The notes under the pieces are model-generated. The model did no database searches and was not told the origin of the DNA. It saw nothing but the letters and a program-made list of their open reading frames with translations. Source: Candidatus Dormiibacterota bacterium (lineage in GTDB: Bacteria; Chloroflexota; Dormibacteria; Dormibacterales; Dormibacteraceae). From it: a stretch of DNA of 64,000 bases. This document shows, in pieces, positions 36,116 to 53,737 of this stretch. Every line of letters begins with the position of its first letter. Position 1 is the first letter of the stretch. The stretch is from contig JAMXLM010000011.1 in assembly GCA_024280995.1 (NCBI GenBank), positions 62,001 to 126,000 on the forward strand, in the 5' to 3' direction. Made by a program: the position numbers and the translations under genes.

Positions 36116-36811
36116 TTGCCTGATCGCCGGCGTGTGGCCGTCCTGGCGGCGCTCGAGGAGGAGGCGCACGCGACAGTGAGCCACCTCCCGCGTTCGGAGA
36201 CGATCGGGCCGCGCCTGTCGATCTGGGAAGGCGACCAGCTCGTGGTCGTCGTCGGCGGCGTCGGCAAGGTCGCCGCGTCCCTGGCGACGCAGTTCGTGTG
36301 CGACGTGTTCAAGCCGCGGTGCGTGATCTCGATCGGCCTGGCGGGCGCGCTGGACAAGAAGGCGAAGCCGGGGCAGGTCGTGGTCGCCACGCGCGCGCTG
36401 CAGCACGATCTCGACGCGAGGCCGCTGACGCAGGCGCGCGGCATGATCCCCGCGCTCGGCATCGGAACGATTCCGGCCAACCCGGCGGTCTCAGAGACCC
36501 TGCTGCGCGCGGCGCGCTACAAGTCGGAGGACGCGCAGGCCGGGCTCGTCCTGACCGGGGACCAGATCATCACCACGCGCGCGGTGCGCGACGCGCTGGC
36601 GAGGGACTTCCCCGACGCCGCGTGCCTGGACATGGAGACCGCGTCGGTGGCGCAGGTCGCCTATCAGAACGACGTGCCGTGGTCGGCCCTGCGCGTGATC
36701 TCGGATGCCGCCGACGAGACCTTCGACCTCAAGGGCATCATCGGCTTCGGAGTCGACACCGCGGCCAACCTGTTCGAGAGCATCATTCAGACCGTGGTGG
36801 ACGACCTGTGA
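36116..36811 (+). CDS. MTA/SAH nucleosidase-like nucleoside phosphorylase-family protein
   Basis: 231 residues with the purine nucleoside phosphorylase/MTAN fold: VAVLAALEEE at the N-terminus, GGVGKVAASLATQF, SIGLAGALDKKAKPGQVVVA, LTGDQIITT, and the catalytic-like DMETASVAQVAY followed by RVISDAADE, where the Asp is the proton donor in MTAN. It could cleave 5'-methylthioadenosine or S-adenosylhomocysteine. Because it overlaps (GTGA) an amidase and barbiturase, a role as a nucleoside hydrolase feeding bases to catabolism should be considered. The start is TTG 36116 or GTG 36134; the latter would give the usual family N-terminus. Confidence 0.8.
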   Translation: MPDRRRVAVLAALEEEAHATVSHLPRSETIGPRLSIWEGDQLVVVVGGVGKVAASLATQFVCDVFKPRCVISIGLAGALDKKAKPGQVVVATRALQHDLDARPLTQARGMIPALGIGTIPANPAVSETLLRAARYKSEDAQAGLVLTGDQIITTRAVRDALARDFPDAACLDMETASVAQVAYQNDVPWSALRVISDAADETFDLKGIIGFGVDTAANLFESIIQTVVDDL

Positions 36812-38085
36812 TCGACGCGTCCCCGCGGTGGCTGACCGCGGAGGAGGCGATGCGGCTGGTCCATCAACACGACCTCGATCCCCAGGTCGTGGTGCGCGCC
36901 CATCTAAACGCCATCGACCGTTACGACGACCGCATCCACGCGTACATCCACGTCGATGGCGAGGCGCAGTCGACGTCGGGAGTGACGCTTGCGGTCAAAG
37001 ACAGCCAGCCGGTGGCCGGCATGCCGTACACCTACGCGACGCCATCGTGGCGCGGGCGCATCGCCACCGAGGACGCCGTAGCGGTGGCACGGGCGCGCCA
37101 GGCAGGCATGGCGGTACTCGGCAAGACCAACCTTCCCGAGCTCGCCGCTTCGATCGGCTGCACCAACACGCTGTTCCCGGCTACAGAGAACCCGTGGCGC
37201 GAGGGGATCACTCCGGGAGGCTCGAGCGGCGGAAGCGGGGCGGCGGTGGCGGCCGGCATGTGCACGGTCGCCCTGGGCGGCGACACCGGCGGATCGATCC
37301 GGATCCCGGCGTCGTGCTGCGGCGTCGTCGGGCTGCGACCCACGCCGGACCGCGTTCCGTCCGAGGAAGTCGACGTCACGGTGCTGCAGTCACGCGGTCC
37401 GATGGCCCGCTCTGTCACCGACGCGCGCTACCTCTTTGCCGTGATGACCGCGACCACGCCGCCGGCCGCCAGTGAAAGACGGCGTCGCGTCGTGGGCATG
37501 ACGTACGAGGGTGCGGAAACCGCGCCCAAAGAGGCATGCCTGCTTGCCGCGGAAGCCCTGCGCGAGCTCGGTCACGTGGTCCAGGAGATTCCGTGGAACC
37601 CCGGACCGGTCACCGAGGGATATGGCACGGTGCGACGCGCAAGCATGGCGAGCTTCCCGGCCGACCTCTCGACGTTCGGCCCGGGCATCCAGAAGCTTGC
37701 CGCCGAGGGTCGCAGCCTGACCGCCATGGATTACTTTCACGCCTTCGAGTCGGCGACCGACGCGGCGAATCGCGCGGTAGGCGTCCCCCTGCTGACGCGC
37801 TACGACTTCCTCCTCACTCCCACCTTGGGGCTGCTGCCGATGCCCATCGAGGAGGTGCCGCCGTTTCTTGGGGAGGCGTGGGCGCGCTACGTCCAGTTCG
37901 TGCTCCCGGTGAGCTTCGCGCGCACGCCCGCGATCTCCATCCCCGCCGGCCTTTACGACGGGCTGCCGGTTGGGGTCCAGCTCGTGGGCCAGTTCGCGCA
38001 GGAATACGACCTGCTCGATTTCGCCGCTGAGCTCGAGCAGATGCCCGGATTCGGATATCGGCGACCGCCGGAGGTGGATGGATGA
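36808..38085 (+). CDS. Amidase-signature hydrolase, candidate ureidomalonase
   Basis: 425-residue amidase-signature enzyme with the Ser-cisSer-Lys triad visible: Lys in LAVKDS (about residue 63), the Gly/Ser-rich GGSSGGSGAA (cis-Ser), and the nucleophile Ser in GGDTGGSIRIPA. It starts at a GTG overlapping the nucleosidase-like gene and ends overlapping the barbiturase-family gene. In the oxidative pyrimidine pathway the product of barbiturase, ureidomalonate, is hydrolysed to malonate and urea; this amidase is one of two local candidates for that step (the other is at 43288). Biuret-type hydrolysis is the alternative if its partner acts on cyanurate. The substrate is inferred from context only. 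Confidence 0.8.
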   Translation: MIDASPRWLTAEEAMRLVHQHDLDPQVVVRAHLNAIDRYDDRIHAYIHVDGEAQSTSGVTLAVKDSQPVAGMPYTYATPSWRGRIATEDAVAVARARQAGMAVLGKTNLPELAASIGCTNTLFPATENPWREGITPGGSSGGSGAAVAAGMCTVALGGDTGGSIRIPASCCGVVGLRPTPDRVPSEEVDVTVLQSRGPMARSVTDARYLFAVMTATTPPAASERRRRVVGMTYEGAETAPKEACLLAAEALRELGHVVQEIPWNPGPVTEGYGTVRRASMASFPADLSTFGPGIQKLAAEGRSLTAMDYFHAFESATDAANRAVGVPLLTRYDFLLTPTLGLLPMPIEEVPPFLGEAWARYVQFVLPVSFARTPAISIPAGLYDGLPVGVQLVGQFAQEYDLLDFAAELEQMPGFGYRRPPEVDG

Positions 38086-39218
38086 AGGCCCAGCGAGTCG
38101 ACATGTTCGTGTGCCCGTCCGCCACGCCGTCTGACGTGTCCGGCCTTCAGAAGCTGGCCGACGAGGGCAAGATCAAACCCGAGACGCTGGTCGCGCTCGT
38201 CGGCAAGACCGAGGGGACGGGTGCACACGACGACTGGGGCAGGATCTGGGCGGACGCCGCGCTGCGCGAATGGACGGCGCGCTTCCTCGGCGTGCCCAAG
38301 GACGAAGTCGCCAAGCACGTGATCTTCGTGCTGTCGGGCGGCTGCCCGGGCGTGATCACGCCTCACATCGCGGCGGTGACCCGCGAGTTTGTGGACGTCC
38401 CCGATGGCGGGGATCGCGAGAAGCGCCTGGTCGTAGGGCGCGCCGGCTCGGAGGCCATCGGTCCGGAAGAGGTCGGACGCATGGGCATGATCCGCAAGGT
38501 CGCGGCCGCCACGCACGAGGCGATGAAGGACGCCGGCCTGACGGACCCGAAGGACGTCCACCTCGTGATGGTCAAGGTGCCGGGCCTGACCGTCGCGAGC
38601 ATCAGGGACGCGGAGTCGAGGGGCGAGACGGTGGTGTCGCACGACCTGACTTTCGGGCCCGAGGGCGCGGGGGTCTATGCCAACGACGCGGCCGCGCTCG
38701 GCGTGGCCATGGCCCTCGGCGAAGTTCCGGAGTCCAAGCTGTCGGACGACGTCGTGCGGCGCGACTGGGACCTGTTCTCGGAGGTCGCGATGACGTCGTC
38801 GGGCGGCGAGAAGCGTCACGGTGAGGTCGTGGTCTTCGGCAACTCGACGGCATCCGCGAGCGCGCTGCGAATCGGCCACTCGGTTACGCACGATTTCATC
38901 GACGCCGAAGGGGTCCGAGCGGCGCTGCGGAGCGCGGGCCTGCAGTTCGACGGCGACGGCCTGCCGGACCAGGACGACTTGCGGCGGCTTGTCCACGTTT
39001 TCGCCAAGTCCGTGATTCCGGGCAACGACCATGTGCGCGGGAACCGGATCACGCTGCTCGACGACGTGCACGCATACGAGATCGGCAAGGCGCTGGGCGG
39101 GATGCTTGTCGCGTCGGTGACCGGGCGGACGACGAACTACGTCAGCGGCGGCGAGCGCAACTCGCACCAGGGGCCGCCGGACGGGAACATCGTCGCGGCG
39201 GTGGTGCGGGCGGACTAG
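38082..39218 (+). CDS. Barbiturase/cyanuric acid hydrolase family ring-opening amidohydrolase
   Basis: 378 residues of the ring-opening amidohydrolase family with three similar domains (Toblerone fold), known only for barbiturase and cyanuric acid hydrolase (AtzD/TrzD). Family landmarks: VGKTEGTGAHDDWGR, VLSGGCPGVITPH, the Ser-rich AMTSSGGEKRHGEVV, SVTHDFIDAEGVR, and VRGNRITLLDD...NYVSGGERNSHQGPPDG near the C-terminus. Each domain supplies a Lys-Ser pair for amide hydrolysis. Uracil/cytosine genes next door (permeases, codA, MatB-like) favour barbiturate as substrate over cyanurate. It overlaps the amidase gene and converges with the small ABM-like gene. Confidence 0.88.
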   Translation: MKAQRVDMFVCPSATPSDVSGLQKLADEGKIKPETLVALVGKTEGTGAHDDWGRIWADAALREWTARFLGVPKDEVAKHVIFVLSGGCPGVITPHIAAVTREFVDVPDGGDREKRLVVGRAGSEAIGPEEVGRMGMIRKVAAATHEAMKDAGLTDPKDVHLVMVKVPGLTVASIRDAESRGETVVSHDLTFGPEGAGVYANDAAALGVAMALGEVPESKLSDDVVRRDWDLFSEVAMTSSGGEKRHGEVVVFGNSTASASALRIGHSVTHDFIDAEGVRAALRSAGLQFDGDGLPDQDDLRRLVHVFAKSVIPGNDHVRGNRITLLDDVHAYEIGKALGGMLVASVTGRTTNYVSGGERNSHQGPPDGNIVAAVVRAD

Positions 39219-39502
39219 GCGGTCGCGAACACCTCGACCGTCGGCTTGCCGTCCAGGCTGCGCTCGAGACTCGTGAACTCCGGCCGCTGGTGGAAGCTGC
39301 GCATCGCTTCGTCGGAGTCCCACCGCTCGATCAGCACCAGCTGATCCGGATTCCGGTCGGAGCTCGCGACCTGGGCGCCGAAGCAGCCCTTCGCGTCCCG
39401 CAACGCCTCAGCGGCGGACCTCAGCACTCCGGCGACCTCGTCGCGCTTGCCTGCGCCAGGTTGGTGGCGCTCAACCCTGACGACACTTGCATGTTCGTTC
39501 AT
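39215..39502 (-). CDS. Antibiotic-biosynthesis-monooxygenase (ABM) domain protein
   Basis: 95-residue dimeric alpha-beta barrel protein: VVRVERHQPGAGKRDEVAG at the start, FGAQVASSDRNPDQLVLIERWDSDEAMRSFHQ (parts) in the core. Such small proteins act as cofactor-free monooxygenases on quinols or only as binding proteins. It is the last gene of the minus-strand uracil-type operon, 66 bases after the molybdenum subunit, and overlaps the barbiturase stop by 4 bases. The start ATG 39502 gives the standard family N-terminus. Its substrate is not known. Confidence 0.78.
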   Translation of the reverse strand: MNEHASVVRVERHQPGAGKRDEVAGVLRSAAEALRDAKGCFGAQVASSDRNPDQLVLIERWDSDEAMRSFHQRPEFTSLERSLDGKPTVEVFATA

Positions 39503-39568
39503 GAAGCTGAAAACGCACATTCGGATGCAAACGGCCGAAATCGGGCGCCGATCGGCGCGTCTGGATCG

Positions 39569-41905
39569 TCAACAGCCGGCCTGGCTCAGCTCGAACAGCT
39601 TCAGCGGCGACAAGGGCATCTCGGTGATCGGCACACCCAGCGCGTCTTCGATCGCCGACGCCAGGACCGCGCCGACCGGGATCACACCCGCCTCCCCCGC
39701 CCCCTTCACCCCGAGCGGGTTCAACGGTGACGGCGTTTCGATGTGGTCGATCTCGATCGGCGGGACCTCGGTTGCGTACGGCATGAGGAACTCCATGAAC
39801 GACGCATTCCGCAGCTGCCCGTCGTCGTCGTAGGCCAGGCGCTCGTAGAACGCTCCACCGATGCCTTGCGCGACGCCACCCTCGATCTGCCCCTGGAGGA
39901 CGAGCGGGTTGATGACACGACCGCAGTCGTGTACGACCACATACTTGAGGATCTCGAGCCGGAACGTCCTGGGGTCGACGCGCACGTAAGCGGCGTGGCA
40001 GCCTGACGCCCACGTCGACCCCGGCGGGCTGTAATAGCCTGTCGCTTCGAGGCCTGGCTGCTCGCCGTCGGGGAGCGGAGGGCCAGGTCGCGATCGCCCC
40101 GCGAACTGCGTCGCCGCCTCCGTGCCGCCGCCGAACGCGTAGCGCACAGGATTCGAGAGAACGGCCACGGCGCCGAGGGGCATGCCTTTATCGGGCGATC
40201 CTTTTACGAATGCGCGCCCGCCGGCGAGCTCGATGTCGGCGGGATCTGCCTCGAGGTGATCGGCCGCGATCTTCTTCGCCTTTTCCGCCACCATCCGCGC
40301 GCCGGCATGCATCGCGTTGCCCACCAGGACCGCGCTGCGCGAGGCGAAGGTGCCTATTCCCCAGGGCATCCGCCGGGTGTCGCCGCTGGTGATCTCGACG
40401 TCCTTCACGTCGACGCCCAGCTCGTCGGCGACGACCTGCGCCCACACCGTGGCGTGCGCCTGTCCTTGATTCGGATTCCCAGTCGCGGCCATGACTTTTC
40501 CCGACACCAGTACCTGCACGTGGGCGCCCTCGTACGGGCCGACGCCGGTGCCCTCGACGTAGGCGGCGATGCCCATGCCCACGTTTTCGCCTTCCGGCTT
40601 CGGCCCGAGCAGCTTCACCGCGCGATCGAGCAGCTCGGGGTAGTTGCCGCTGTCGTAGACGGTCATGTTCCCGTCCTGCCACAGAACGCCGACTTCGTAC
40701 GGGAAAGCGTCCGGCTGGATAAGGTTGCGCCGCCTGACCTCCACGCGTTCGAGCTTCAGCTCGCTGGCGATCGCGTCGAGCGTCCGCTCCATCACGAAGC
40801 ACGCATGCGGCCGCCCCGCGCCGCGGTATGGCGACGTCGCCTGGGCGTTCGTGTACAGGTCGCGGAAGCGCACGCGGTAGTTGGGTATCCGGTACGGCCC
40901 GGGCAGCTGGGCCGCGCTGATGATCGGCAGGATGATGCCGTACGGCGTGTAAGCCCCGCCGTCATGGATGAAGTCGTCGCTCAGGGCGAGCAGCCGGCCA
41001 TCGTCGTCGAAGCCGACCTCGACCTCGTGAACCTGGCCGCGCTCCTGGTTGACCGCCGTGAAGTGCTCCTGCCGGTCCTCCGTCCACTTCACCGGCCGCC
41101 CGAGCTGCATCGCGGCGAACGGGACCAGCAGCTCGTCGGGGTAGAAGAGCATGATCTTCGGCCCGAATCCGCCGCCGACGTCGGGCGCGATGACCTCGAC
41201 GTTCGACTCCGGAAGTCCGAACAGCACCGCCAGCCCGCCGCGGATCGACGTCGGCGATTGCGTCGAGTCGTAGATCGTCAGCTTGTGCTCGGCTTCGGAC
41301 CACCGTGCCCATACCGCGCGCGCCTCCATCGGATTCGCGGCGCCCCGCTCGTAGCGCAGCCGCAGCTTCAAGCGATGAGGCGCCTGCGCCATCGCGCCGT
41401 CGACATCTCCGGCCTCCTGCAGCATCTCCGCGGCGACGTTGCCGGGCACGTCGTCGTGGACCAGGTGCTCGGCGCGCAGGGCCGCTTCGGGCGTGATCAC
41501 CACGGGCATCGGCTCGTAGTCGACCTGGGCGAGCTCGGCCGCGTCCTCCGCGACGTACCGGCTCTCGGCAACGACGAACGCCACCGCCTCCCCCGCGTAG
41601 CGCACGACCTCGGATGCAAGACAGCGCTGCGTGCGGCCGTGGGTCAGGTTCGGGTGCGGGATGAGCAGCGGCAGGTCACGGTCGCCAAACGGCAGGTCGG
41701 CGGCCGTGTAGACGGCGACCACCCCCGGGAGGTCGCGGGCCGCCGTCACGTCGATCGATGTGATGCGCGCGTGCGCGTAGGGCGAGCGCACGAAAACGCA
41801 CTCGAGAGCGCCTTCGCCGATGTCGTCGGTGTAGCGGCCGTGGCCGCGCAGCAGGCGGTCGTCCTCCATACGCTGCACCGGAGCGCCGAACCACCGAGTG
41901 GTCAC
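39569..41905 (-). CDS. Molybdenum hydroxylase large subunit, candidate uracil-oxidising enzyme
   Basis: 778-residue molybdopterin-binding subunit of the xanthine dehydrogenase/CO dehydrogenase family. Mo-cofactor motifs such as GGGFGPK, the active-site loop SPYRGAGRPHA (about 357-366) and the catalytic-Glu motif GVKGAGEAG (about 731-739) are present. The form I CO dehydrogenase loop AYRCSFR is absent, and the loop also differs from the RGFG of the second copy at 58490, so this is a different substrate class. The GTG start overlaps the small-subunit stop. It is encoded with uraA, a MatB-like ligase and, convergently, barbiturase, which makes hydroxylation of uracil to barbiturate an attractive role. 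This is inference from context. Confidence 0.85.
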   Translation of the reverse strand: MTTRWFGAPVQRMEDDRLLRGHGRYTDDIGEGALECVFVRSPYAHARITSIDVTAARDLPGVVAVYTAADLPFGDRDLPLLIPHPNLTHGRTQRCLASEVVRYAGEAVAFVVAESRYVAEDAAELAQVDYEPMPVVITPEAALRAEHLVHDDVPGNVAAEMLQEAGDVDGAMAQAPHRLKLRLRYERGAANPMEARAVWARWSEAEHKLTIYDSTQSPTSIRGGLAVLFGLPESNVEVIAPDVGGGFGPKIMLFYPDELLVPFAAMQLGRPVKWTEDRQEHFTAVNQERGQVHEVEVGFDDDGRLLALSDDFIHDGGAYTPYGIILPIISAAQLPGPYRIPNYRVRFRDLYTNAQATSPYRGAGRPHACFVMERTLDAIASELKLERVEVRRRNLIQPDAFPYEVGVLWQDGNMTVYDSGNYPELLDRAVKLLGPKPEGENVGMGIAAYVEGTGVGPYEGAHVQVLVSGKVMAATGNPNQGQAHATVWAQVVADELGVDVKDVEITSGDTRRMPWGIGTFASRSAVLVGNAMHAGARMVAEKAKKIAADHLEADPADIELAGGRAFVKGSPDKGMPLGAVAVLSNPVRYAFGGGTEAATQFAGRSRPGPPLPDGEQPGLEATGYYSPPGSTWASGCHAAYVRVDPRTFRLEILKYVVVHDCGRVINPLVLQGQIEGGVAQGIGGAFYERLAYDDDGQLRNASFMEFLMPYATEVPPIEIDHIETPSPLNPLGVKGAGEAGVIPVGAVLASAIEDALGVPITEMPLSPLKLFELSQAGC

Positions 41906-42345
41906 CTGGCGAGCTGCTCCACAGCCCGGCGGATCGACGCATAGCCGGTGCACCGGCAGAGGTTGCCGCTGATGCCTTCTTCAATCTCCAGCGCGTTCGG
42001 ATGCGGGTTGCGCGCGAGCAAGCCGGTCACCGACATGACGAACCCCGGAGTGCAGAAGCCGCACTGCAGCGCGTGGTTCTCGTGGAATGCCTGCTGAACC
42101 CGGTGCAGCGGCTCGCCGTCACGAGCCAGGCCCTCGATGGTCGTGACGTCGTGACCTTCGGCCTGGACCGCGAGCATCAGGCATGAGCGCACCGGGGCTC
42201 CGTCGAGCAGAACCGTGCAGCAGCCGCACACGCCGTGCTCGCAGCCGACGTGGGTTCCTGTCAGGCCGAGGTCATGACGCAGGTGGTCGCTGAGGAGCCG
42301 GCGCGCGTCATGCGGCGCGGGATGCTCGACCCCGTTGACCTTCAT
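41902..42345 (-). CDS. Molybdenum hydroxylase 2Fe-2S subunit (first set)
   Basis: 147-residue electron-transfer subunit with two [2Fe-2S] clusters: plant-type GCEHGVCGCCTVLLDG and the C-terminal CGFCTPG...GNLCRCTGY. The N-terminus MKVNGVEHPAPHDARRLLSDHL is typical. ATGA overlap with the FAD-subunit gene upstream and GTGA overlap with the large-subunit gene downstream show an M-S-L order in one transcript. It passes electrons from the Mo site to FAD. Confidence 0.93.
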   Translation of the reverse strand: MKVNGVEHPAPHDARRLLSDHLRHDLGLTGTHVGCEHGVCGCCTVLLDGAPVRSCLMLAVQAEGHDVTTIEGLARDGEPLHRVQQAFHENHALQCGFCTPGFVMSVTGLLARNPHPNALEIEEGISGNLCRCTGYASIRRAVEQLAR

Positions 42346-43094
42346 GCCGCAAACGCCTTGTCGGTGAGCACACGCACGAGGTGGAGGCGGAAGGCCGGTG
42401 TGGCCTCGAGGTCGCCGCTCGGGTCCAGACCCTTCACCGGATCGGCCGGGTCGGCGAGGACCGGAGTCGACGCCACGCCGAACAGCACCAGGCGGTCGTC
42501 CGCGCGCACCGCGCCCGCCAGCGCAAAGTCGCCATGCCGTCGCGACTCTTCGACGATCGCATGCTTGCCGCGGATCGCCGGAAACCACGCCTCCACGAGC
42601 AGCTCGTCGGGCGCCAGCGACGTCTCGAACACGCCGCTGAACAGGTCGTCCGCGGCGATGGTCCGCACCCCGCGCGCGGACCGCGCAACCACGCTGCCGC
42701 CGAGCGCAAGCAGGACGGCGGGAATCTCGGAGGCGGGGTCGGCGTGGGCGATGCTGCCGCAGACCGTGCCGCGGTTGCGGATCACGCGGTGCGCCACCAG
42801 CCGGACCGCGTCGCTCAAAAGCGGGCAGACACGCGCGACGAGGTCCGAGTCCTCCACCGCCGCCTGCCGCGCGAGCGCCTGGATCGCGACGCCGCCATCG
42901 CGCTCGTAGATCCGGTCGAGCGCGCCGACCCGGTTGATGTCGATGAGGTGCGCCGGCCGCGCCAGCCGGAAGTTGAGCAGCGGGATCAGCGACTGGCCAC
43001 CCGCCAGCACCTTCGCGTCGTCCAGCGATGAGAGCAGCTCACACGCCTCCTCGACGGACTCCGGCGAGTGGTATTCGAACGGCGCCGGCTTCAC
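42342..43094 (-). CDS. Molybdenum hydroxylase FAD subunit (first set)
   Basis: About 250-residue CoxM/XdhC-like FAD-binding subunit: KPAPFEYHSPESVEEACELL, FAD motif AGGQSLIPLLNFRLA, and NRGTVCGSIAHADPASEIP. GTG 43094 starts the family-typical sequence; an ATG at 43121 would add nine residues. It follows the cyclase-family gene across 193 bases that include structured element family 2, copy A, so this operon may be split into two transcripts. Confidence 0.9.
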   Translation of the reverse strand: MKPAPFEYHSPESVEEACELLSSLDDAKVLAGGQSLIPLLNFRLARPAHLIDINRVGALDRIYERDGGVAIQALARQAAVEDSDLVARVCPLLSDAVRLVAHRVIRNRGTVCGSIAHADPASEIPAVLLALGGSVVARSARGVRTIAADDLFSGVFETSLAPDELLVEAWFPAIRGKHAIVEESRRHGDFALAGAVRADDRLVLFGVASTPVLADPADPVKGLDPSGDLEATPAFRLHLVRVLTDKAFAA

Positions 43095-43137
43095 TCTTCG
43101 GAGGAGTGTGGCCGGGCCCATGCTCGCCAAGGCGCGA

Positions 43138-43255
43138 CATCGGCGGCCGGAGCCAAGGAAGGGGTGGCGCGACGAGGAGCGCACTCGTAGGTGCGCGAGG
43201 AGTGAGCGCCGGGCCCCCTGACGCAGGCTTCAGCGCCGAAGGCGCCCGGCCGCCT
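43138..43255. repeat. Structured intergenic element, family 2, copy A
   Basis: Shares a 17-base block (43138-43154) and an identical 36-base block (43220-43255) with 54240-54360. Between them is a hairpin with different sequence but same place: GCGCAC/GTGCGC here (43179-43184 with 43191-43196). The right block contains GCGCC-GAA-GGCGC. It sits between the cyclase gene and the molybdenum-hydroxylase FAD-subunit gene, both on the minus strand. Confidence 0.65.
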
Positions 43256-45527: not shown

Positions 45528-46826
45528 TTACGTGGCGGCCGCCTCGGTCGGCTCCTCCTCCGTGTCGCGGATGTGGCCTGGCCGAAGGATCTGGTACAGA
45601 ACGATCGAGCCCAGAGCGCCCAGGGCCAGGTTGTTCAGCTCGAAGTCGCCGAACTTCACGTCGGCGCCGCCCGCGGCCAGGATCAGCGGCACCGCCGCCA
45701 CGGCCAGGTTGGCCCGCTTGCTGAAGTCCACCCGCGCGTCGACCCAGATCTTGGCCCCGATGATTGCGATCAGGCCGAACAGGTAGAGCTCGATGCCGCC
45801 GATGACGCTGCTAGGAATGCTGTCGACCAGCGCCCCGAACTTGGGGATGAACCCGAGCAGGATCGCGGCGATCGCGGCGACGATGAAGACCCATATGGAG
45901 AAGACGCGGGTCACGCCCATCACGCCGATGTTCTCCGCGTACGTCGTCTCACCCGCACCGCCGAATAGGCCGCTGACGGTGGTGGCGACCGCGTCGCCCA
46001 GGAAGGTTCGCCCGAGCAGCGGGCTGAGGTCGCGCTTCATGATCCCGCTGATCGCGAACACGTGCCCCGCGTTCTCGGCCACGAGTATCAGCGGGATGAA
46101 CCAGAAGAGGCTGAACTGGTGCTCGAAGTTGCCGAAGCTCGGGAACGAGAACGTCGGCAAGCCGAGCCAGTTCGCGCTCTGGACGCCTGAGAAATCGATG
46201 TGGCAGGCGGTCTTAGCGCCGCAGTTCGGGTCGACCAGTGAAACGACATAGCCGACGATCACCGCGAACAGGATCGGCAGCAGGCGAGGGAACCCGCGCA
46301 GGTAGACGCTGACCAGGAGCGCGGTCATGAGCGTCACGGTGGCGGTCAGGAGGTCGCCCTTGTAGTTGTTCCAGGCCGCGCCGGCGAGCGCGATGCCGAT
46401 CACCGCCACGACGGTGCCGGTGACGACCGGGGGCAGGAGATACCGGATCGGGTTTACGCCCACGAAGTGGACGACCACGCCGATGGCGATGTAGATCACG
46501 CCGGCGATGACGATGCCGCCGTAAGCCAGGTCGTGGTGGGACGTGCTGCCGCCCTGGATGGCAAGCACCGCGCCTAGGAAGGAAAACGATGACCCGAGGT
46601 AGCTCGGCACCTTGCGGCCGGTGATGAACAGGAAGATCAGCGTCGCAACGCCGCTGAAGAAGATGACGGTGTTCGGGTTGAAGCCGAGGATGATCGGCAC
46701 CAGCACGGTGGCGCCGAACATCGCCATCACATGCTGCAGGCCCATGAGGATGGTCTGCGGCCAGGGCAGCCGATCCTCCGGATAGACGATGTCGCTTTCG
46801 CGACTTGCCTTGGTAGCTACCGCCAT
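45528..46826 (-). CDS. Nucleobase permease NCS2, UraA-like
   Basis: 432-residue membrane protein with about fourteen helices. The substrate-site signature GGAGETTYAENIGVM and the helix-8 motif LVAENAGHVFAI match uracil/xanthine permeases; their acidic residues bind the base in UraA. ISGIMKRDLSPLLGRTF follows as in UraA. The first gene of the minus-strand operon that continues with the MatB-like ligase, the cyclase, and the molybdenum hydroxylase, so its likely cargo is uracil. It diverges from the CodA-like gene 62 bases away. Confidence 0.92.
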   Translation of the reverse strand: MAVATKASRESDIVYPEDRLPWPQTILMGLQHVMAMFGATVLVPIILGFNPNTVIFFSGVATLIFLFITGRKVPSYLGSSFSFLGAVLAIQGGSTSHHDLAYGGIVIAGVIYIAIGVVVHFVGVNPIRYLLPPVVTGTVVAVIGIALAGAAWNNYKGDLLTATVTLMTALLVSVYLRGFPRLLPILFAVIVGYVVSLVDPNCGAKTACHIDFSGVQSANWLGLPTFSFPSFGNFEHQFSLFWFIPLILVAENAGHVFAISGIMKRDLSPLLGRTFLGDAVATTVSGLFGGAGETTYAENIGVMGVTRVFSIWVFIVAAIAAILLGFIPKFGALVDSIPSSVIGGIELYLFGLIAIIGAKIWVDARVDFSKRANLAVAAVPLILAAGGADVKFGDFELNNLALGALGSIVLYQILRPGHIRDTEEEPTEAAAT

Positions 46827-46888
46827 ATTCGAAGCCCTCCCCTACAAGAGCCCGGGCCAACCGAGTCCGGCGCTAACTTAAGCCCGCC

Positions 46889-48124
46889 GTGTGGGCTTTG
46901 CAAGATGCACGTGCTGCCGGCGGCCGCGTGGTGGACGTGGTCGTCGAGGACGGGCGTGTCGTGAGGCTCGGCCCCGGGGAGGCCGCCGGCGTCGATGAGG
47001 TGGTCGACTGCGCCGGCCGGCTCCTACTCCCAGCCTTCGTCGATGGGCACGTGCACCTGGACAAGGTGCTGATCCGTGAGGAGCTCAGGGACCACGACGG
47101 CACGCTCGCCGGCGCGATCGGCGCGATCCACGAGCGGAAGCGCCGTTATTCCGTGGAGGACGTTCGGGCGCGGGCGCGAGCAGTGATCGAGGACTCGGTC
47201 CGCCTGGGCACGACCAGGCTCCGTTCGCATGTCGACGTCGACACGATCGGCGGGCTCGTTCCCCTCGAAGGCGTGCTTGCGGCGGCCGCCGACTGCGCCG
47301 ACATCGCCGAGGTTCAGACGATCGCGTTTCCCCAGGAGGGCCTTCTCCGCGACCCGGGCGCCTACGCGCTGATGGAAGCCGCCATCGAGGCGGGCGCGGA
47401 CGTCGTCGGAGGCATGCCTCACTGGGAAACCGACGATGCGGCCCGGCTCGAGCACGTTCGGCTTTGCTTCGACCTGGCAGAACGGTTCGACCGGGACATC
47501 GACATGCACGTCGACGAGACGGACGACGGGGGCGTGCGGACCCTGGAGATGGTTGCAGACAAGGCTCTGGCGCGCGGCTGGATCGGCCGGGTATGCGCGG
47601 GACACGTCTGCTCGCTGTCGGCGGCAGACGACGGCTATGCCGGGCGCGTGATCGAGAAATGCCTCCGCGCCGGTATCTCCATCGCGGCCAATCCCGTCAC
47701 CAACCTCGTGCTACAGGGCCGAGGCGATCGAGGGCTCGTGCGCCGTGGCACGACGCGAATCGGCGAGCTGCGGGCCGCGGGCGTCAACGTCCTCTTCGGC
47801 CAGGACTGCGTCAATGACGGCTTCTATCCATTCGGGCGTGGCTCGATGCTCGAGGTGGCTCTGATCTCGGCCCACGCGGCCCACCTGACGTCCCGAGCGG
47901 ACCTGGACTTCGACCTGCAAGCGGTCACCGACGCCCCCGCCCGCGCGATGCGACTCGACGACTACGGGTTGCGGGTTGGGGCGCGAGCTGATCTGCAGCT
48001 GTACCCGGTGCCGTCGTGGCGCGAGGCGCTGCGACTGCAACCGCCGCCAGACAAGGTCTGGTTTCGCGGCCGGCTCGTCGCCGAGAACTCAGCGAGCTCG
48101 AAGCTGCATCGCGCGCGGTCCTGA
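46889..48124 (+). CDS. CodA-like amidohydrolase, substrate unassigned
   Basis: 411 residues of the cytosine deaminase/AtzC branch of the amidohydrolase superfamily. Metal and catalytic motifs: DGHVHLDK, FPQEGLL, DMHVDETDDGG, CAGHVCSLSAAD and FGQDCVNDGFYPFG. All expected metal ligands are conserved, so the protein should be active, but the motifs differ from the genuine CodA at 50900 (HCDETDDDHSR, GHDSVMDPWYPLG). It might act on a modified cytosine, an aminotriazine or a related N-heterocycle. Starts at GTG 46889, divergent from the uraA-type gene; its 3' end overlaps the convergent DUF4126 gene by 36 bases. Confidence 0.82.
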   Translation: MWALQDARAAGGRVVDVVVEDGRVVRLGPGEAAGVDEVVDCAGRLLLPAFVDGHVHLDKVLIREELRDHDGTLAGAIGAIHERKRRYSVEDVRARARAVIEDSVRLGTTRLRSHVDVDTIGGLVPLEGVLAAAADCADIAEVQTIAFPQEGLLRDPGAYALMEAAIEAGADVVGGMPHWETDDAARLEHVRLCFDLAERFDRDIDMHVDETDDGGVRTLEMVADKALARGWIGRVCAGHVCSLSAADDGYAGRVIEKCLRAGISIAANPVTNLVLQGRGDRGLVRRGTTRIGELRAAGVNVLFGQDCVNDGFYPFGRGSMLEVALISAHAAHLTSRADLDFDLQAVTDAPARAMRLDDYGLRVGARADLQLYPVPSWREALRLQPPPDKVWFRGRLVAENSASSKLHRARS

Positions 48125-48676: not shown

Positions 48677-48699
48677 CTCAGCCTCAGTTGTACCACCCG

Positions 48700-49323: not shown

Positions 49324-49349
49324 CGGGTCAAACACTAGACTCACAACGG

Positions 49350-49904
49350 GTGGCGGTTAAACAACGGGTTCGTGGGTCGAAGCGCGCGCCGGGCCGCGCG
49401 ATGATCTCCTCCGAGCGCATCGCCAAACGTGTCAGGCAGCTCGGCCTCGAGATCTCCGAGGTCTACGCCGGCACCGACACGCCGCTGGTCCTGGTCGCCA
49501 TCCTCAAGGGCGCGACGGTTTTCGCCGCCGACCTGCTGCGCAGCCTCTCCATCCCCGCCGAGCTCGAGTTCGTGCGCGCGGCAAGCTACGGCGCCGGGAC
49601 GAAGAGCAGCGGGCGCGTGAAGATCGCGCACATGGTCGAGGGGTCGCTCGAGGGACGGCACGTCCTGCTCGTCGAGGACATCGTCGACTCGGGACGCACG
49701 ATCGACACGATCCTCAAGCGGTTCCGGCGTTTGAAGCCTGCATCGCTTCGCGTGGCGGCGCTGCTCGATCGTCCTGCGCGCCGTGAGATCGAGGTCCAGA
49801 TCGACTTCGTCGGCTTCGTCATCCCAGACCGATTCGTGATCGGCTACGGGCTGGACTACGCCGGCCTCTATCGGGAGCTGCCAGGAATCTACTCCCTCAG
49901 CTAG
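49350..49904 (+). CDS. hpt: Hypoxanthine phosphoribosyltransferase
   Basis: 184-residue (or 167 from ATG 49401) purine salvage enzyme making IMP or GMP from hypoxanthine or guanine and PRPP. The PRPP-binding motif is VLLVEDIVDSGRTI, the flexible loop contains RAASYG, and the C-terminus VGFVIPDRFVIGYGLDYAGLYRELPGI (in parts) is diagnostic of HPRT. Starting at ATG 49401 would give the typical family N-terminus (ISSERIAKRVRQLG). Salvage here sits next to catabolic genes, so hypoxanthine from adenine deaminase can go either way. Confidence 0.92.
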   Translation: MAVKQRVRGSKRAPGRAMISSERIAKRVRQLGLEISEVYAGTDTPLVLVAILKGATVFAADLLRSLSIPAELEFVRAASYGAGTKSSGRVKIAHMVEGSLEGRHVLLVEDIVDSGRTIDTILKRFRRLKPASLRVAALLDRPARREIEVQIDFVGFVIPDRFVIGYGLDYAGLYRELPGIYSLS

Positions 49905-50910
49905 ACAGCCTCGCCTCGACCACCTTGAACACGCCGCCGCTTGGGATCAGGCGAACGTCATTGAACCCCGCGCTCTTCAGCAACGACCGGAACTCGTCCA
50001 GCGTCCTTTCCCGGCTGCCGAGCTGAACCATCATCTGCAGGTCGGTTATGACAGCGTTGAGGTCGGCCGGGCTGTCGGTCACGGGAGAGGGCACGAGCCG
50101 CTCGACGATGACCAGACGGGCGCCGGCCGGCATCGCCTTCCGGCAGACGGCGAGGATCTTTGCCGCGGGGGCATCCTCCAAGTCGTGGATGATGTCCTTC
50201 AAGAGGTACACGTCTCCATTTCGCGGAACGGACTCGAAAAAGTCGGCTTCGACGATCGTGCTCCGGTCAGCCACACCAAGCTCGGCTAGGTTTGCCGCGG
50301 TCTCGGTCAGGCCCGCCGGGAGATCGCACACCACCCCGCGAAGGTGTGGATGCGCGCGAAGAATCCCTCCGACCAGCCCCCCTTTGCCGCCTCCGACGTC
50401 GACGACGAGCTTGGCGCTCGCGAAGTCAACCGAGGCAGCGACGAAGTCGACGGTATCGTTCGAGTTCGACACCATCGCCTGGTTGAAGCGGGCGGCGTAA
50501 TCCGGATCCCGCGCGACCGTCTCCCAAAGCGTGCCGCCGTGGGCGACGACGTGGCCCACGGCGCCCGTCTTGAGAACGTCCATGAAGAGACCCCACGAGA
50601 GGTAGCTCTCGGGGATCAGCATCATGGTGGTGGGGCGCCGTGAACCAACGGTGTCGCCTCGGAACAAGTGCCCGACCTCGGTGTTGGCATAAGTGCTGTC
50701 AGGACGCTGCTCGAGAACGCCAAGTCCAACCAACCCGCGAAGCAGTCGCTCGAGCCTGGACGCATCGATTTGGGTCGCCCTACTGAGTGCGTCGGCACCA
50801 AACGCTGAGTCGGCAAGCAAGTCTGGGATCTTCAGCTCGCATGCGGCGTGCACGATCTGCGACGCACGGAAACCGTTGAGGAGCTGATACGCGCGGTCGC
50901 TAGGGGTCAC
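49897..50910 (-). CDS. O-methyltransferase (family 2, winged-helix dimerisation domain)
   Basis: 337 residues. An N-terminal dimerisation/winged-helix domain (SQIVHAACELKIPDLLAD) and a C-terminal SAM domain with VVDVGGGKGGLVGGIL and DLPAGLTETA, plus LLKDIIHDLEDAPAAKIL, as in TcmO/CrtF-like and plant-type O-methyltransferases. Its start overlaps the end of codA by 11 bases on the same strand, so it is probably cotranslated after cytosine deaminase, although no methylation step is known in that pathway. It overlaps hpt (convergent) by 8 bases. Confidence 0.85.
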   Translation of the reverse strand: MTPSDRAYQLLNGFRASQIVHAACELKIPDLLADSAFGADALSRATQIDASRLERLLRGLVGLGVLEQRPDSTYANTEVGHLFRGDTVGSRRPTTMMLIPESYLSWGLFMDVLKTGAVGHVVAHGGTLWETVARDPDYAARFNQAMVSNSNDTVDFVAASVDFASAKLVVDVGGGKGGLVGGILRAHPHLRGVVCDLPAGLTETAANLAELGVADRSTIVEADFFESVPRNGDVYLLKDIIHDLEDAPAAKILAVCRKAMPAGARLVIVERLVPSPVTDSPADLNAVITDLQMMVQLGSRERTLDEFRSLLKSAGFNDVRLIPSGGVFKVVEARLSS

Positions 50911-52186
50911 GCAGTTGGTTTCGGGGTGGGTTCAGGAAGTCGACCATCTCCTCACGGCCGTCCCACGTCACTGTTGTCCGCGCGGGCTCGGTCCGGGCGA
51001 CGATCTTGCCCCCACGGAGGACGAGCTTGCGTGGAGCTATGAGCCGGATCGCGTCCATCTCGGTCGGCGCGTCGAACGCGCAGAGGTCGGCGCGACATCC
51101 GGGCAGCAGCCCGTACTTCTCGAGGCCGAGCGCGCTCGCCCCATTCCAGGTGATCATGTCCATCAGCGTCCGCAGCTCGGAGTGGCCCGACATCTGGCCG
51201 TAGTGGGCGAGCACGAACGCCGACTGCATCGGGTCGCCGTAACCCAGCGGATACCACGGGTCCATGACCGAGTCGTGGCCGATGCAGACGTTGATGCCCG
51301 CCGACAGCAGCTCTTTCACGCGCGTATGCCCTCGGCGGATCGGATACGAGTCGAAACGTCCCTGCAGCGTCGAGTTGTCGAGCGGGTTGGTGACCATGTG
51401 CATCTGCGCGCGCTTGAGGTTGTTTATCAGCCGGTACGCGTAGGCGTTGTTGTACGAGTGCATCGCCGTCGTGTGTGAGGCGGTGACCCGTCCGCCCATC
51501 CCCAGCCGGATCGTCTCGGCGGCCATGGTCTCGATGAAGCGCGAGTGGTCGTCGTCCGTCTCGTCGCAGTGGATGTCAACCCGCAGGCCCTTGTTCGAGG
51601 CGAGCGCGAAGGCGAACTTGACCGAGTCGACGCCGTACTCGCGCGTCAGCTCGAAGTGCGGGATCGCTCCGACGACGTCGACGCCGAGGTCGACCGCCTT
51701 GCGCATCAGGTCCTGGCCGCCGTCGAACGACATGATTCCCTGCTGCGGGAAGGCGACGAGCTGCAGGTGGACCTGGTCGCCGATCTCCTCGCGGAGCTCG
51801 ACCAGGGCGCGCACGGCCTTCAATTCCGGGTCACACACGTCGACGTGAGAGCGCACGAACTGCACCCCGTTGGCCAGCTGCCAGCGGAGGACTGTCCGCA
51901 CCCGCTGCTTCACGTCCTCGACCGTCAGCGTCCTGACTCGCTCGGCCCAGATGGCGATCCCCTCGAACAGGGAGCCCGTCTGGTTGTGCCTGGGCTCGCC
52001 TACCGTGAGCACCGCGTCGAGGTGGATGTGGGGTTCGACCAGGGCCGGGGTGACCAGCGCCCCGCCGAGGTCGATGGTCTGCTGCGCGTCGGGCTCCAGC
52101 TCGCTGATCAGCCCCTCCTTGATGCCGATCTCCCGGGTCTCGGATTCCCCGGGCAGGCGGGCGCCCCGGAGGAGCAAATCGAGCAT
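50900..52186 (-). CDS. codA: Cytosine deaminase
   Basis: 428-residue metal-dependent deaminase converting cytosine to uracil and ammonia. Motifs closely follow E. coli CodA: EPHIHLDA, FPQQGIMSF, IHCDETDDDHSRF, SHTTAMHSYNNAYAYRL, TLQGRFDSYPIRRG, and GHDSVMDPWYPLG. The ATG at 52186 starts MLDLLLRGARLPG; sequence upstream of it is only in-frame non-coding. It is divergent from a CodB-like permease gene across 75 bases, the usual cod arrangement, and is followed by an O-methyltransferase gene. Confidence 0.94.
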   Translation of the reverse strand: MLDLLLRGARLPGESETREIGIKEGLISELEPDAQQTIDLGGALVTPALVEPHIHLDAVLTVGEPRHNQTGSLFEGIAIWAERVRTLTVEDVKQRVRTVLRWQLANGVQFVRSHVDVCDPELKAVRALVELREEIGDQVHLQLVAFPQQGIMSFDGGQDLMRKAVDLGVDVVGAIPHFELTREYGVDSVKFAFALASNKGLRVDIHCDETDDDHSRFIETMAAETIRLGMGGRVTASHTTAMHSYNNAYAYRLINNLKRAQMHMVTNPLDNSTLQGRFDSYPIRRGHTRVKELLSAGINVCIGHDSVMDPWYPLGYGDPMQSAFVLAHYGQMSGHSELRTLMDMITWNGASALGLEKYGLLPGCRADLCAFDAPTEMDAIRLIAPRKLVLRGGKIVARTEPARTTVTWDGREEMVDFLNPPRNQLRDP

Positions 52187-52261
52187 TCGACGAAATCCTA
52201 ACTTGACCTTAAACTTCCGATCCGTAGCTGACGGCGTCGCTTTTTTGAGGGGGAAGCGCCT

Positions 52262-53737
52262 ATGCAGTCGGTCCAGGAAGTAGAGACACACGTACCCGTT
52301 AGGGAGGGCGACTACGGGGACAAGGTCGCCACCGTCGAGCCCGGAGGCGTCGAGTTCATCTCTCTCAAGGAGCGGCACGGCAAGCCGATCCACCTCTTCT
52401 GGACGTGGCTGTCGCCGAACCTCGAGTTCGCGACCGTCTTCGTCGGGGTGCTCGGGATCGCCGTGTTCGGGCTGAGCTTCTGGGAAACCGCCGTCGCAAT
52501 CGTTGTAGGTACTGCGCTCGGCTCACTGACGCACGCGATCCTGTCGTCCTGGGGACCGCGATACGGCGTGCCGATGATGGTGAAGAGCCGCGGGGCATTC
52601 GGCTTCCTCGGCAACATCCTGCCGGCCGGGTTGAACGCGTTCACCGGCTCGATCGGCTGGTTCATCGTCAACAGCGTCAGCGGCGCCTTCGCGCTGCAGG
52701 CGCTGGCCCTGCTGATTCACTGGAACGTCCCGTTCTGGCTTTCGTTCCTGGTCATAGTGGTCGCCCAGGTCGCCATCGCGACCCTCGGCCACAACTTCAT
52801 CCACTTCTTCGAGCGGTGGGCGCTCCCTCTGCTCGGCATCGTGTTCGCCGCGGCGACTCTGCTCATCTTCAGTCACGCCAACCTGGGCGTGGCGAGCAAC
52901 CCCGGCTCCGTCGGCCATGTCGGTGCGTTCCTACTCCTCTTCACCGCGGTGTTCGGATACGCCGCCGGCTGGAACCCGTACGCCGCCGACTACACGCGCT
53001 ACCTGCCGCCCGACACGGACCGGCGAATGGTCGGCTTCTGGGCCGGCGCGGGCGTCTTCGTCTCGTGCGTCGTCCTCGAGCTCGCCGGCGCCGCGCTGGC
53101 CACAGTCTCAGGGACCAAGTGGGGGCCGAATGACATCCCGACCGTGCAGCTCCAGAAGGGCATGCCGGACTTCCTGTACTACCTGACGCTTCTGTCGATC
53201 GCCGTGGGGGCGGTCGCCGCGAACGCGATCAACATCTACAGCGGCACCCTGTCGCTGGTCGCGGTGGGCATCCGCGAGATGGGTATGACGCTGAAACAAC
53301 GCCGCGCCGCGCTGGCCATCGGCGCCGGCGTGCTCGGGTACATCATCGGAGTCGCCGGCCAGGCCAACGTCGGCCCTGGCAGCAAGTACGAGTCCTTCCT
53401 GCTGCTGATCAGCTACTGGATCGCGGCGTGGCTCGCGGTGGTACTCGTCGACCACTGGCTGCGACGCGGCGACTATGGCGACGAGTCGCTCTTCTTCAAC
53501 ACCAGGTACAACCGCTGGCAAGGAGTCGTGGCGATGGCCCTCGGGGTCATCGTCTCCGTGGGGCTATTTGGCAACGTCTTCGGCGTCTACGTCGGGCCGA
53601 TCCCCAACAACAACCCGGGCATCGGCGACATCACCTTCATCGTCGGCTTCGTCCTCACAGCCGTCCTGTACTACGCCTTCTCGATGGTCACGCGAACACA
53701 GACGACGACGGCCGCTGCCGGTTCCAGGGCTGCGTAA
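52262..53737 (+). CDS. NCS1 cytosine/purine permease, CodB-like
   Basis: 491-residue transporter with twelve helices. Signs of the NCS1 family: GPRYGVPMMVKSRGAFG in the second helix region, GYAAGWNPYAADYTRYLP in the middle and SYWIAAWLAVVLVDHWLRRGDY near the end. It is divergent from codA, which favours cytosine as substrate; allantoin or uracil are alternatives because allantoin genes follow. A ribosome site AGGGGG lies 8 bases before the ATG. Confidence 0.92.
   Translation: MQSVQEVETHVPVREGDYGDKVATVEPGGVEFISLKERHGKPIHLFWTWLSPNLEFATVFVGVLGIAVFGLSFWETAVAIVVGTALGSLTHAILSSWGPRYGVPMMVKSRGAFGFLGNILPAGLNAFTGSIGWFIVNSVSGAFALQALALLIHWNVPFWLSFLVIVVAQVAIATLGHNFIHFFERWALPLLGIVFAAATLLIFSHANLGVASNPGSVGHVGAFLLLFTAVFGYAAGWNPYAADYTRYLPPDTDRRMVGFWAGAGVFVSCVVLELAGAALATVSGTKWGPNDIPTVQLQKGMPDFLYYLTLLSIAVGAVAANAINIYSGTLSLVAVGIREMGMTLKQRRAALAIGAGVLGYIIGVAGQANVGPGSKYESFLLLISYWIAAWLAVVLVDHWLRRGDYGDESLFFNTRYNRWQGVVAMALGVIVSVGLFGNVFGVYVGPIPNNNPGIGDITFIVGFVLTAVLYYAFSMVTRTQTTTAAAGSRAA

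Follow-up and report, generated by a model that had tools for sequence, protein, structure and literature searches.

A candidate island for oxidative pyrimidine catabolism beside purine-degradation genes in a Dormibacteraceae genome

Which ring compounds are broken down by the nucleobase genes at 36808-53737 of the window, the whole stretch of 64,000 nucleotides analysed here? The preliminary description had read them as a complete oxidative pyrimidine pathway from cytosine through uracil, barbiturate and ureidomalonate to malonate, urea and malonyl-CoA. The nucleobase island stands; a class VI barbiturase and a fixed MatB gene do not, and the urea step is doubtful. We consider it probable, if short of assured, that this soil bacterium uses the island, which adjoins a set of genes for purine degradation, to catabolise pyrimidine bases oxidatively; the bases are probably uracil, thymine or methylated cytosine, and the route is a rarely seen one. 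To our knowledge, neither uracil/thymine dehydrogenase, the first enzyme of this route, nor ureidomalonase has an assigned gene. Biochemical knowledge of the route goes back to the 1950s (PMC3758960). In a literature search on pathway terms, at the level of titles and abstract openings and reaching a minority of subscription-journal papers, none of the papers listed names this gene set.

Layout and conservation of the island

All gene families named in the preliminary description were recovered as open frames. The island runs from the trimmed start of the amidase (36808) to the stop of the NCS1 permease (53737), and the features are as follows.

36116..36811, plus strand: MTA/SAH-nucleosidase-like gene, named by eye from sequence; heads the plus-strand run and overlaps the amidase start
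36808..38085, plus strand: amidase-signature hydrolase (PF01425, 249 bits; start by trimming)
38082..39218, plus strand: AtzD/TrzD-family (Toblerone-fold family) cyclic amide hydrolase of the window type, the ring opener (PF09663, 373 bits, cut-off 25)
39215..39520, minus strand: small ABM-domain protein (PF03992)
39569..41953, minus strand: Mo hydroxylase large subunit, coxL-like (NF040766, 1156 bits, cut-off 950)
41902..42345, minus strand: Mo hydroxylase 2Fe-2S (small) subunit (PF01799 and PF00111; start trimmed)
42342..43184, minus strand: Mo hydroxylase FAD subunit (PF00941; trimmed start 43121)
43288..44070, minus strand: PF04199 cyclase-family hydrolase with the motif HVTTHLDAPAH (120 bits)
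44067..45506, minus strand: AMP-forming acyl-CoA ligase, MatB-like (malonate or methylmalonate), named from the best solved chains; NF005702 below cut-off
45528..46826, minus strand: NCS2 nucleobase permease (TIGR00801 above cut-off)
46889..48124, plus strand: cytosine-deaminase-family enzyme with Cys at CodA position 314 (closest solved chain 4r7w)
49350-49904: hypoxanthine-phosphoribosyltransferase-like frame (by eye, first 60 residues)
50900..52393, minus strand: second cytosine-deaminase-family enzyme with Ser at CodA position 314 (443 bits to 1r9z)
52262..53737, plus strand: NCS1 nucleobase permease (PF02133, 128 bits)
53798..63942, continuing past the window end: adjoining genes, mostly purine degradation (DUF3830, allantoate amidohydrolase, allantoinase-like, 8-oxoguanine deaminase, xanthine dehydrogenase subunits, urate oxidase, HIU-hydrolase-like by eye, OHCU decarboxylase and the C-terminal part of adenine deaminase)

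The second deaminase paralogue, the phosphoribosyltransferase-like frame and the purine-degradation genes had been omitted from the preliminary description. Overlaps of 4 bases join the amidase to the ring opener and the cyclase to the AMP ligase.

The co-location goes beyond chance, because 14 genomes of the family keep the same gene order, and their proteins share 59-91% identity with the window counterparts. The Mo hydroxylase adjoins the ring opener in all 14 family genomes with a window-type ring opener, the amidase adjoins the ring opener in 12 of the 12 loci that reach its place, and all 11 ring-opener loci that extend to the PF04199 cyclase have it next to the Mo hydroxylase. These four components form a conserved core. 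Among 20 other loci, 10 also have the cyclase next to the Mo hydroxylase, at an identity of at least 55%. The gene set first described thus holds together in relatives for the Mo hydroxylase and the ring opener but only in part for the MatB-like gene, which is kept in six of the 11 loci reaching its place and missing from the other five, and so is ruled out as a fixed part of the island. The NCS1 permease adjoins the second deaminase in three relatives (L028, L033 and L036), and the ABM-domain protein is matched in some relatives only. The MTA/SAH-nucleosidase-like gene, adjacent in five same-genus stretches (L027, L029, L030, L032 and L038), is likely a bystander.

The ring opener and the molybdenum hydroxylase

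The ring opener scores above the PF09663 cut-off and its three Ser-Lys pairs align, which predicts membership of the AtzD/Bar Toblerone family. At positions 195, 321, 325, 345 and 346 (AtzD numbering) all 14 window-type rows read N,Y,K,G,G. The signature of class VI barbiturase (Bar) is given in the available text of PMC3758960 as Asn195, His321, Lys325, Val345 and Ser/Ala346; Asn195 and Lys325 are common to both, and residues 321, 345 and 346 differ (Tyr, Gly, Gly), with Gly in place of the Bar Val345. Window-type and Bar rows form separate clades in the tree (each 100/100), the former together with the solved structure 5hy0 and next to the barbiturase clade. Three of five signature positions and the separate clade rule out class VI barbiturase, and the name 'barbiturase' is therefore one that we infer. 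The window type is a candidate for opening barbiturate or 5-methylbarbiturate. Its nearest solved relatives are 5hy0, 5hy2 and 5hy4 (370 bits versus 224 for Bar), which share its SGGERNSH insert but have His at position 321 where the window type has Tyr. We take 5hy0 to be a Frankia enzyme for which no substrate was found, from a class that acts on neither cyanurate nor barbiturate. We know of no enzyme of the window-type clade that opens barbiturate; the clade gains two substrates to try.

The Mo hydroxylase (39569-43184, minus strand) consists of large, small and FAD subunits, the three-subunit Mo/2Fe-2S/FAD layout of quinoline 2-oxidoreductase and coxL-like Mo hydroxylases. Quinoline 2-oxidoreductase is the best solved relative of its large subunit, with 453 bits versus at most 427 for CO dehydrogenases. 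Identity to homologues outside the family is 47-60% in the phylum search and at most 58% in plasmid-collection records; for paralogues in the same genome it does not exceed 42% across nearly the whole length and is 48% within one short piece. We regard the enzyme as a candidate uracil/thymine hydroxylase. Diamond et al. counted 1,889 coxL homologues in 466 grassland-soil genomes and reported that most differ from the CO-oxidising type and may be dehydrogenases of small molecules that have been overlooked, with unknown specificity (PMC6784897). The locus gives one coxL-like subtype a concrete candidate substrate.

A link to barbiturase is found elsewhere. Among 436 plasmid-collection records for the Mo hydroxylase, the two best come from Embleya and Nonomuraea, and these are also the only two records more than 60% identical to a barbiturase piece; both class VI barbiturase loci seen outside the phylum (n=2) come from this collection. 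In Embleya, about 8 kb separates a class VI barbiturase from a Mo hydroxylase homologue of 58% identity, and a stretch of about 32 kb also takes in NCS2 and NCS1-like (27%) permeases, a deaminase that has the CodA Asp, a carbamate-kinase-like gene, FdrA/AllH/AllG and HyuB. In Nonomuraea, the barbiturase lies about 30 kb from a 57% identical homologue, together with HyuAB, NCS2 and FdrA/AllG. NCS2 homologues adjoin the Mo hydroxylase in both and in Rhodococcus ZPP. Within the family, G071 (N,H,K,V,A) and G371 (N,H,K,V,G) hold a Bar-clade enzyme and this Mo hydroxylase, on other contigs.

Deaminases, permeases and the later steps

The first deaminase is closest to 4r7w (also 4r85 and 4r88), a chain labelled cytosine deaminase that we take to be the Klebsiella 5-methylcytosine deaminase. 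Position 314 of CodA is Cys in this enzyme and in four other genomes, and Ser in the second deaminase and in three others. In CodA, Asp314 excludes 5-methylcytosine, and by alignment both window deaminases are without it; with CodA-family metal ligands recognised by eye in the alignments, both could be 5-methylcytosine deaminases. The 'cytosine deaminase' of the preliminary description is therefore right as to family, with two paralogues, while cytosine as the substrate is uncertain, because both lack the discriminating Asp. Solved chains match the second deaminase from residue 76, so its true start is likely downstream of the start of the 50900..52393 frame. The NCS2 permease scores 391 bits against the RutG model (cut-off 759).

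The four best solved chains for the AMP ligase are malonyl-CoA synthetases (309-316 bits), two of them chimeras with benzoate-CoA ligase, and NF005702 gives 413 bits (cut-off 558). The amidase is a candidate for cleaving the ring-opened ureide. The PF04199 cyclase is distant to the solved kynurenine formamidase and isatin hydrolase chains. Cleavage to malonate plus urea, as first proposed, is doubtful because the genome, rated 94% complete, contains no urease match and no urea carboxylase above cut-off.

The proposed route and its alternatives

Every substrate in the following scheme is predicted, with the observed gene families, kept order, signatures and class VI barbiturase linkage elsewhere as its basis. 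The NCS2 and NCS1 permeases would import bases, the deaminases would act on cytosine and/or 5-methylcytosine to give uracil or thymine, and the Mo hydroxylase would oxidise these to barbiturate or 5-methylbarbiturate. Ring opening by the window-type hydrolase may then yield ureidomalonate or the methylated equivalent, the amidase would cleave this ureide, probably giving ammonia rather than urea, and the MatB-like ligase, where present, would yield malonyl-CoA or methylmalonyl-CoA; the cyclase is a core member with no step assigned. Putative genes can be named for the steps from uracil to malonate and urea, and no urea-using enzyme was found in the genome. The predicted chemistry resembles the Rhodococcus erythropolis pathway (uracil/thymine dehydrogenase, Bar and ureidomalonase), and the ring opener belongs to the Toblerone family of Bar in the clade nearest to it; the departure from the Bar signature and the lack of a urea-using enzyme set the two apart. 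We know of no amidase, cyclase or ligase as part of that pathway. A search limited to the PreA model gave no dihydropyrimidine dehydrogenase above cut-off.

The pyrimidine reading is supported by the gene order in 14 genomes, the nearness of the Mo enzyme to an N-heterocycle hydroxylase, the Embleya and Nonomuraea linkage, Asn195 and Lys325, the Bar-clade enzymes of G071 and G371, and the negative PreA result. Against it count the lack of a window-type enzyme known to act on barbiturate, the presumed class of 5hy0, the wider spread of the Mo hydroxylase (found at E<=1e-200 in 67 of 400 genomes of the phylum, versus 18 of 400 with PF09663 of any type), the five loci without the MatB-like gene, the missing urea-using enzyme and the residues at 321, 345 and 346. 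The relatives also bear on it. All eight family genomes with the Mo hydroxylase but without this operon have HyuB and/or AllG at most 17 kb away; neither is on the same contig in any of the 14 that carry it. Of the 20 other loci, 10 have FdrA and AllG next to the Mo hydroxylase, as does G071 in L118. Four of the 20 (L077, L078, L086 and L088) with neither HyuAB nor FdrA-AllG, and G111, with FdrA-AllG and no recognised ring opener, count against the pyrimidine reading, as does the joint presence of Bar and HyuB in Embleya and Nonomuraea. Bar and HyuB are therefore not plain alternatives, which weakens HyuAB as a strict substitute for the ring opener.

The FdrA-AllG neighbours also favour another cyclic ureide or imide as the substrate, such as hydantoin converted through parabanate to oxalurate, or another N-heterocycle, whose product would be cut by the amidase or FdrA-AllG. 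NCS1 family members transport varied substrates, and the window-type ring opener has no assigned substrate. The E. coli relative AllFGH, an oxamic transcarbamylase acting with carbamate kinase, cleaves oxalurate, according to the available text of PMC11326118. We nevertheless judge this reading unlikely: in Embleya and Nonomuraea this Mo hydroxylase is linked to class VI barbiturase and its neighbours point to ureidomalonate rather than oxalurate, cytosine-deaminase-family genes adjoin, and the ligase scores higher with malonyl-CoA synthetase, at up to 316 bits, than with oxalate-CoA ligase, at 223 bits. An FdrA-AllG type is ruled out for the window itself, whose genome has no AllG match. Within the pyrimidine reading, a tentative sub-case, to which we give a minor share of belief, runs from 5-methylcytosine through thymine, 5-methylbarbiturate, ureido-methylmalonate and methylmalonate to methylmalonyl-CoA. 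It draws on Cys or Ser at 314 in both deaminases and their orthologues, set against Asp in the single Embleya locus, on Gly345 of the ring opener, and on three methylmalonyl-CoA-mutase-family matches in the genome, a family common enough to occur in 8 of 14 control genomes. A change at CodA position 314 need not abolish cytosine activity, which tempers the argument. Ser at this position marks a 5-methylcytosine deaminase in the available text of PMC6186785.

Cyanurate degradation of the AtzD type is very improbable, for all that Gly345 and Gly346 are those of AtzD, the sequence family and three Ser-Lys pairs are shared with AtzD/TrzD, and the AtzD model NF052395 gives 322 bits, below its cut-off of 360. 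Arg195, Thr321 and Arg325 of AtzD/TrzD (PMC9118981, PMC3758960) are absent, and the tree sets the window type apart from cyanurate-type rows (100/98). Two further conserved Arg and the motif SGGxExQGPxGGGP characterise cyanuric acid hydrolases (PMC9118981); the window enzyme has Asn and Lys at the Arg positions, and its motif region reads SGGERNSHQGPPDGN, with a two-residue insert (SGGERNSHQGP). The amidase falls far below cut-off in the models scored, those of AtzE and allophanate hydrolase. Residues, motif and tree rule out a cyanurate hydrolase, in agreement with the preliminary description. A true aerobic CO dehydrogenase among unrelated neighbours is extremely improbable: NCBI models give the enzyme this name, with CODH_aero_grp5 above cut-off, but its active-site loop is SPYRGAGRP rather than the form I loop AYRCSFR, quinoline 2-oxidoreductase scores higher, and the nucleobase neighbours are conserved.

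A more speculative and rather doubtful extension of the pyrimidine reading is a modular pathway, in which the misnamed coxL-like Mo hydroxylase is the missing uracil/thymine dehydrogenase and the form found in the window is adapted to 5-methylcytosine and thymine, with methylmalonyl-CoA as its end product. The enzymes that open the ring (window-type or class VI Toblerone enzymes, or a dedicated HyuAB clade) and those that cleave the ureide (the amidase or FdrA-AllGH transcarbamylase) would be swappable. The relatives suggest which genes carry out the missing steps, making candidates for the dehydrogenase, the coxL-like subtype and the orphan ring-opener clade testable. They also suggest a phosphorolytic, ATP-recovering variant, in which counterparts of the E. 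coli proteins (FdrA and AllG, joined in Embleya by AllH) adjoin the Mo hydroxylase: FdrA-AllGH would convert ureidomalonate and phosphate to malonamate and carbamoyl phosphate, from which carbamate kinase would recover ATP.

The probable pyrimidine gene island and its enzymes

The gene island at 36808-53737 is a real, conserved nucleobase island, best read, with moderate confidence, as serving oxidative pyrimidine catabolism. Its chemistry is already known and its gene content is new: the island supplies candidate genes for those enzymes of the oxidative pyrimidine route that, to our knowledge, have had no genes assigned so far. The gene families named in the preliminary description were borne out by family searches of the window, and its boundaries correspond to the amidase start after trimming (36808) and the NCS1 stop (53737). 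The second cytosine deaminase paralogue and the purine-degradation set listed below were absent from it.

Features of the island and its right flank
36808-38085, amidase
38082-39218, + strand, PF09663 cyclic amide hydrolase (ring opener)
39569-43184, - strand, three-subunit Mo hydroxylase
43288-44070, PF04199 cyclase
44067-45506, MatB-like ligase
45528-46826, NCS2 permease
46889-48124, first deaminase
50900-52393, second cytosine deaminase paralogue
52262-53737, NCS1 permease
from 53798, past the window end, purine-degradation set

The main rival reading is a different cyclic ureide as substrate. The ring opener matches PF09663 with 373 bits. Among solved chains, 5hy0 ("ring-opening amidohydrolase") comes nearest with 370 bits, whereas cyanurate hydrolases reach at most 293 bits and barbiturase 5hwe 224 bits. 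We take 5hy0 to be a Frankia protein for which reportedly no substrate was identified. At the five specificity positions that the excerpted text of PMC3758960 defines for the AtzD/Bar family (Bar, class VI barbiturase), AtzD has R,T,R,G,G, Bar has N,H,K,V,S and 5hy0 has N,H,K,G,G; N,Y,K,G,G was found in all 14 rows of the window's own clade, here called window type. These rows comprise the window, 11 other family genomes and two contigs (fetched stretches L002 and L003), omitting the partial genes of genomes G215 and G095, the shorter match of L005, and L004 and L006, whose DNA is identical to that of L038 and L040. All three Ser-Lys pairs of the window's ring opener are retained in the alignment. 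In a 28-row tree, in which the tool flagged long branches, the window-type rows form a single clade (100/100). A larger clade (100/100) adds 5hy0 and the G027 gene, and the whole groups with the Bar rows, apart from the cyanurate-type rows (100/98). Ring openers 77-88% identical to the window's occur in loci of Chloroflexi MAGs, presumably from Angelo grassland soil judging by the MAG names.

G027 carries yet another variant of the ring opener, the third (N,E,K,G,G, 51% identical), at L035 7232-8341, distant from the Mo hydroxylase, whose operon holds HyuAB instead. On a Serratia plasmid (L048 3998-9095), a ring opener with cyanurate-type residues adjoins an NCS2 permease, DUF2877 (AllH-like) and FdrA, and a transcarbamylase may act there on the ring-opened product.

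The large subunit of the Mo hydroxylase scores 1156 bits to the NCBIfam model for aerobic CO dehydrogenase group 5 and has the loop sequence SPYRGAGRP. Among solved relatives, quinoline 2-oxidoreductase ranks highest (453 bits), then 6-hydroxypseudooxynicotine dehydrogenase (446), with CO dehydrogenase chains third (427 bits and below).

Conservation of the operon and its variants

Of 400 phylum genomes, 18 contain PF09663, and 17 of these belong to the window's family (23 genomes in the draw). The Mo hydroxylase is more widely spread (67/400 at E<=1e-200), including 22 of the 23 family genomes, the exception being G036. The gene set of the preliminary description recurs in relatives as regards the Mo hydroxylase, whose large subunit adjoins the ring opener in all 14 of the 17 family PF09663 genomes with a window-type gene; the amidase (12/12) and the cyclase (11/11) adjoin in every locus reaching their place. 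The MatB-like ligase recurs only in part, in 6/11 loci (window, L038, L027, L030, L031, L032), and is absent from L028, L033, L034, L036 and L039.

In the plasmid collection, 436 records hold a Mo hydroxylase homologue (E<=1e-50). The top two, Embleya (58%) and Nonomuraea (57%), are also the only records to match the Bar N-terminal piece at more than 60% identity (best match per record), and in both proteins the signature is that of class VI, N,H,K,V,A. The Embleya genes, within ~32 kb, are AllG, FdrA, AllH, NCS2, Mo hydroxylase, C-N hydrolase, Bar, a carbamate-kinase-like gene, an NCS1-like permease, deaminase and HyuB; in Nonomuraea (11.85 Mb record) Bar and Mo hydroxylase are ~30 kb apart. 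The third best is a Rhodococcus plasmid (51%); HyuAB and NCS2 lie close to its Mo hydroxylase, and the stretch showed no match to the window's ring opener. In G071 (L026 9420-13031), a Bar-clade gene directly adjoins a different Mo hydroxylase large subunit (34% identical).

Twenty loci (L069-L088) were fetched from the 53 Mo-hydroxylase phylum genomes without the window-type operon. HyuAB was found in 6/20 (additionally in G371, ~17 kb off on the same contig, L116), FdrA with AllG in 10/20 (additionally in G071, L118), NCS2 in 8/20 and the cyclase (at least 55% identity) in 10/20; L077, L078, L086 and L088 show neither HyuAB nor FdrA-AllG on the fetched stretch. HyuA is apparently in two frames in L073 (3521-5361), adjoining intact HyuB and Mo hydroxylase.

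In G027 (L069), HyuA and HyuB occupy the ring opener's position, between amidase and Mo hydroxylase. All eight family Mo-hydroxylase genomes without the window-type operon have HyuB (G027, G354, G391, G371) or AllG (G071, G111, G175, G254, G354) within 17 kb of it on the same contig, as against 0/14 window-type genomes with a match on that contig, several contigs being short and the counts uncorrected for shared ancestry. AllG lies elsewhere in window-type G268 and G289. The eight HyuB proteins from Mo hydroxylase stretches (Chloroflexota and two Actinobacteria) all fall inside one 11-row clade (100/100) and are 60-87% identical to the G027 protein; other fetched HyuBs reach at most 35%, which also holds for the full-length HyuBs in the six window-type genomes with any. 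Of the three remaining rows, all off the stretch, that of G371 shares the contig and those of G175 and G254 lie elsewhere. A simple exchange of HyuAB for the ring opener is counted against by Embleya and Nonomuraea, each with Bar and this kind of HyuB (in Nonomuraea 11 kb away from the Mo hydroxylase; in Embleya 60% identical, truncated by the stretch end and left out of the tree). G071 and G371 have Bar-clade genes on a contig other than the Mo hydroxylase's. G111 has no PF09663 match and no HyuB in the clade.

Candidate substrate and end products

Within the reading as oxidative pyrimidine catabolism, the deaminases bear on which pyrimidine enters. At the place of the CodA aspartate, which we take to be position 314, the first deaminase has Cys (window and four genomes) and the second Ser (window and three genomes), but the Embleya deaminase near class VI Bar has Asp. 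Ring-opener position 345 is Gly in the window type versus Val in Bar. According to the excerpted text of PMC6186785, Ser at this CodA position marks the Klebsiella 5-methylcytosine deaminase, and changing the Asp (numbered 315 there) to alanine makes CodA accept 5-methylcytosine. Together, the residues at 314 and Gly345 suggest that the island's pyrimidine may be 5-methylcytosine or thymine. The methylmalonyl-CoA-mutase family, a common one, has three matches in the window's genome.

The urea product of the preliminary description fared less well: the genome (3.02 Mb, 94% complete, 46 contigs) has no match to urease or AllG and no urea carboxylase above cut-off (partial matches only), so the amidase more likely releases ammonia, or urea would go as waste. 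Dihydropyrimidine dehydrogenase (PreA model) likewise gave nothing above cut-off. The FdrA-AllG pair of relatives resembles E. coli AllFGH, which, in the excerpted text of PMC11326118, turns oxalurate into oxamate and carbamoyl phosphate; by analogy, FdrA-AllG acting on ureidomalonate would yield malonamate and carbamoyl phosphate.

Adjoining purine genes

Purine degradation from adenine and guanine to allantoate adjoins the pyrimidine genes (53798-63942, continuing into L041). The set comprises allantoate amidohydrolase, an allantoinase-like enzyme, 8-oxoguanine deaminase, xanthine dehydrogenase, urate oxidase, OHCU decarboxylase, adenine deaminase and an HIU-hydrolase-like frame named by eye; the use of allantoate amidohydrolase is in keeping with the lack of a urease match in the genome. 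Right of the window (L041 1170-4636) lies another Mo hydroxylase large subunit, 33% identical to the island's, adjoined by an AMP-ligase-like stretch (35%). DUF3830 is found between the NCS1 permease and allantoate amidohydrolase (53798-54208), and also on a Skermanella plasmid (L044 10039-10452), close to a ring opener and allantoinase.
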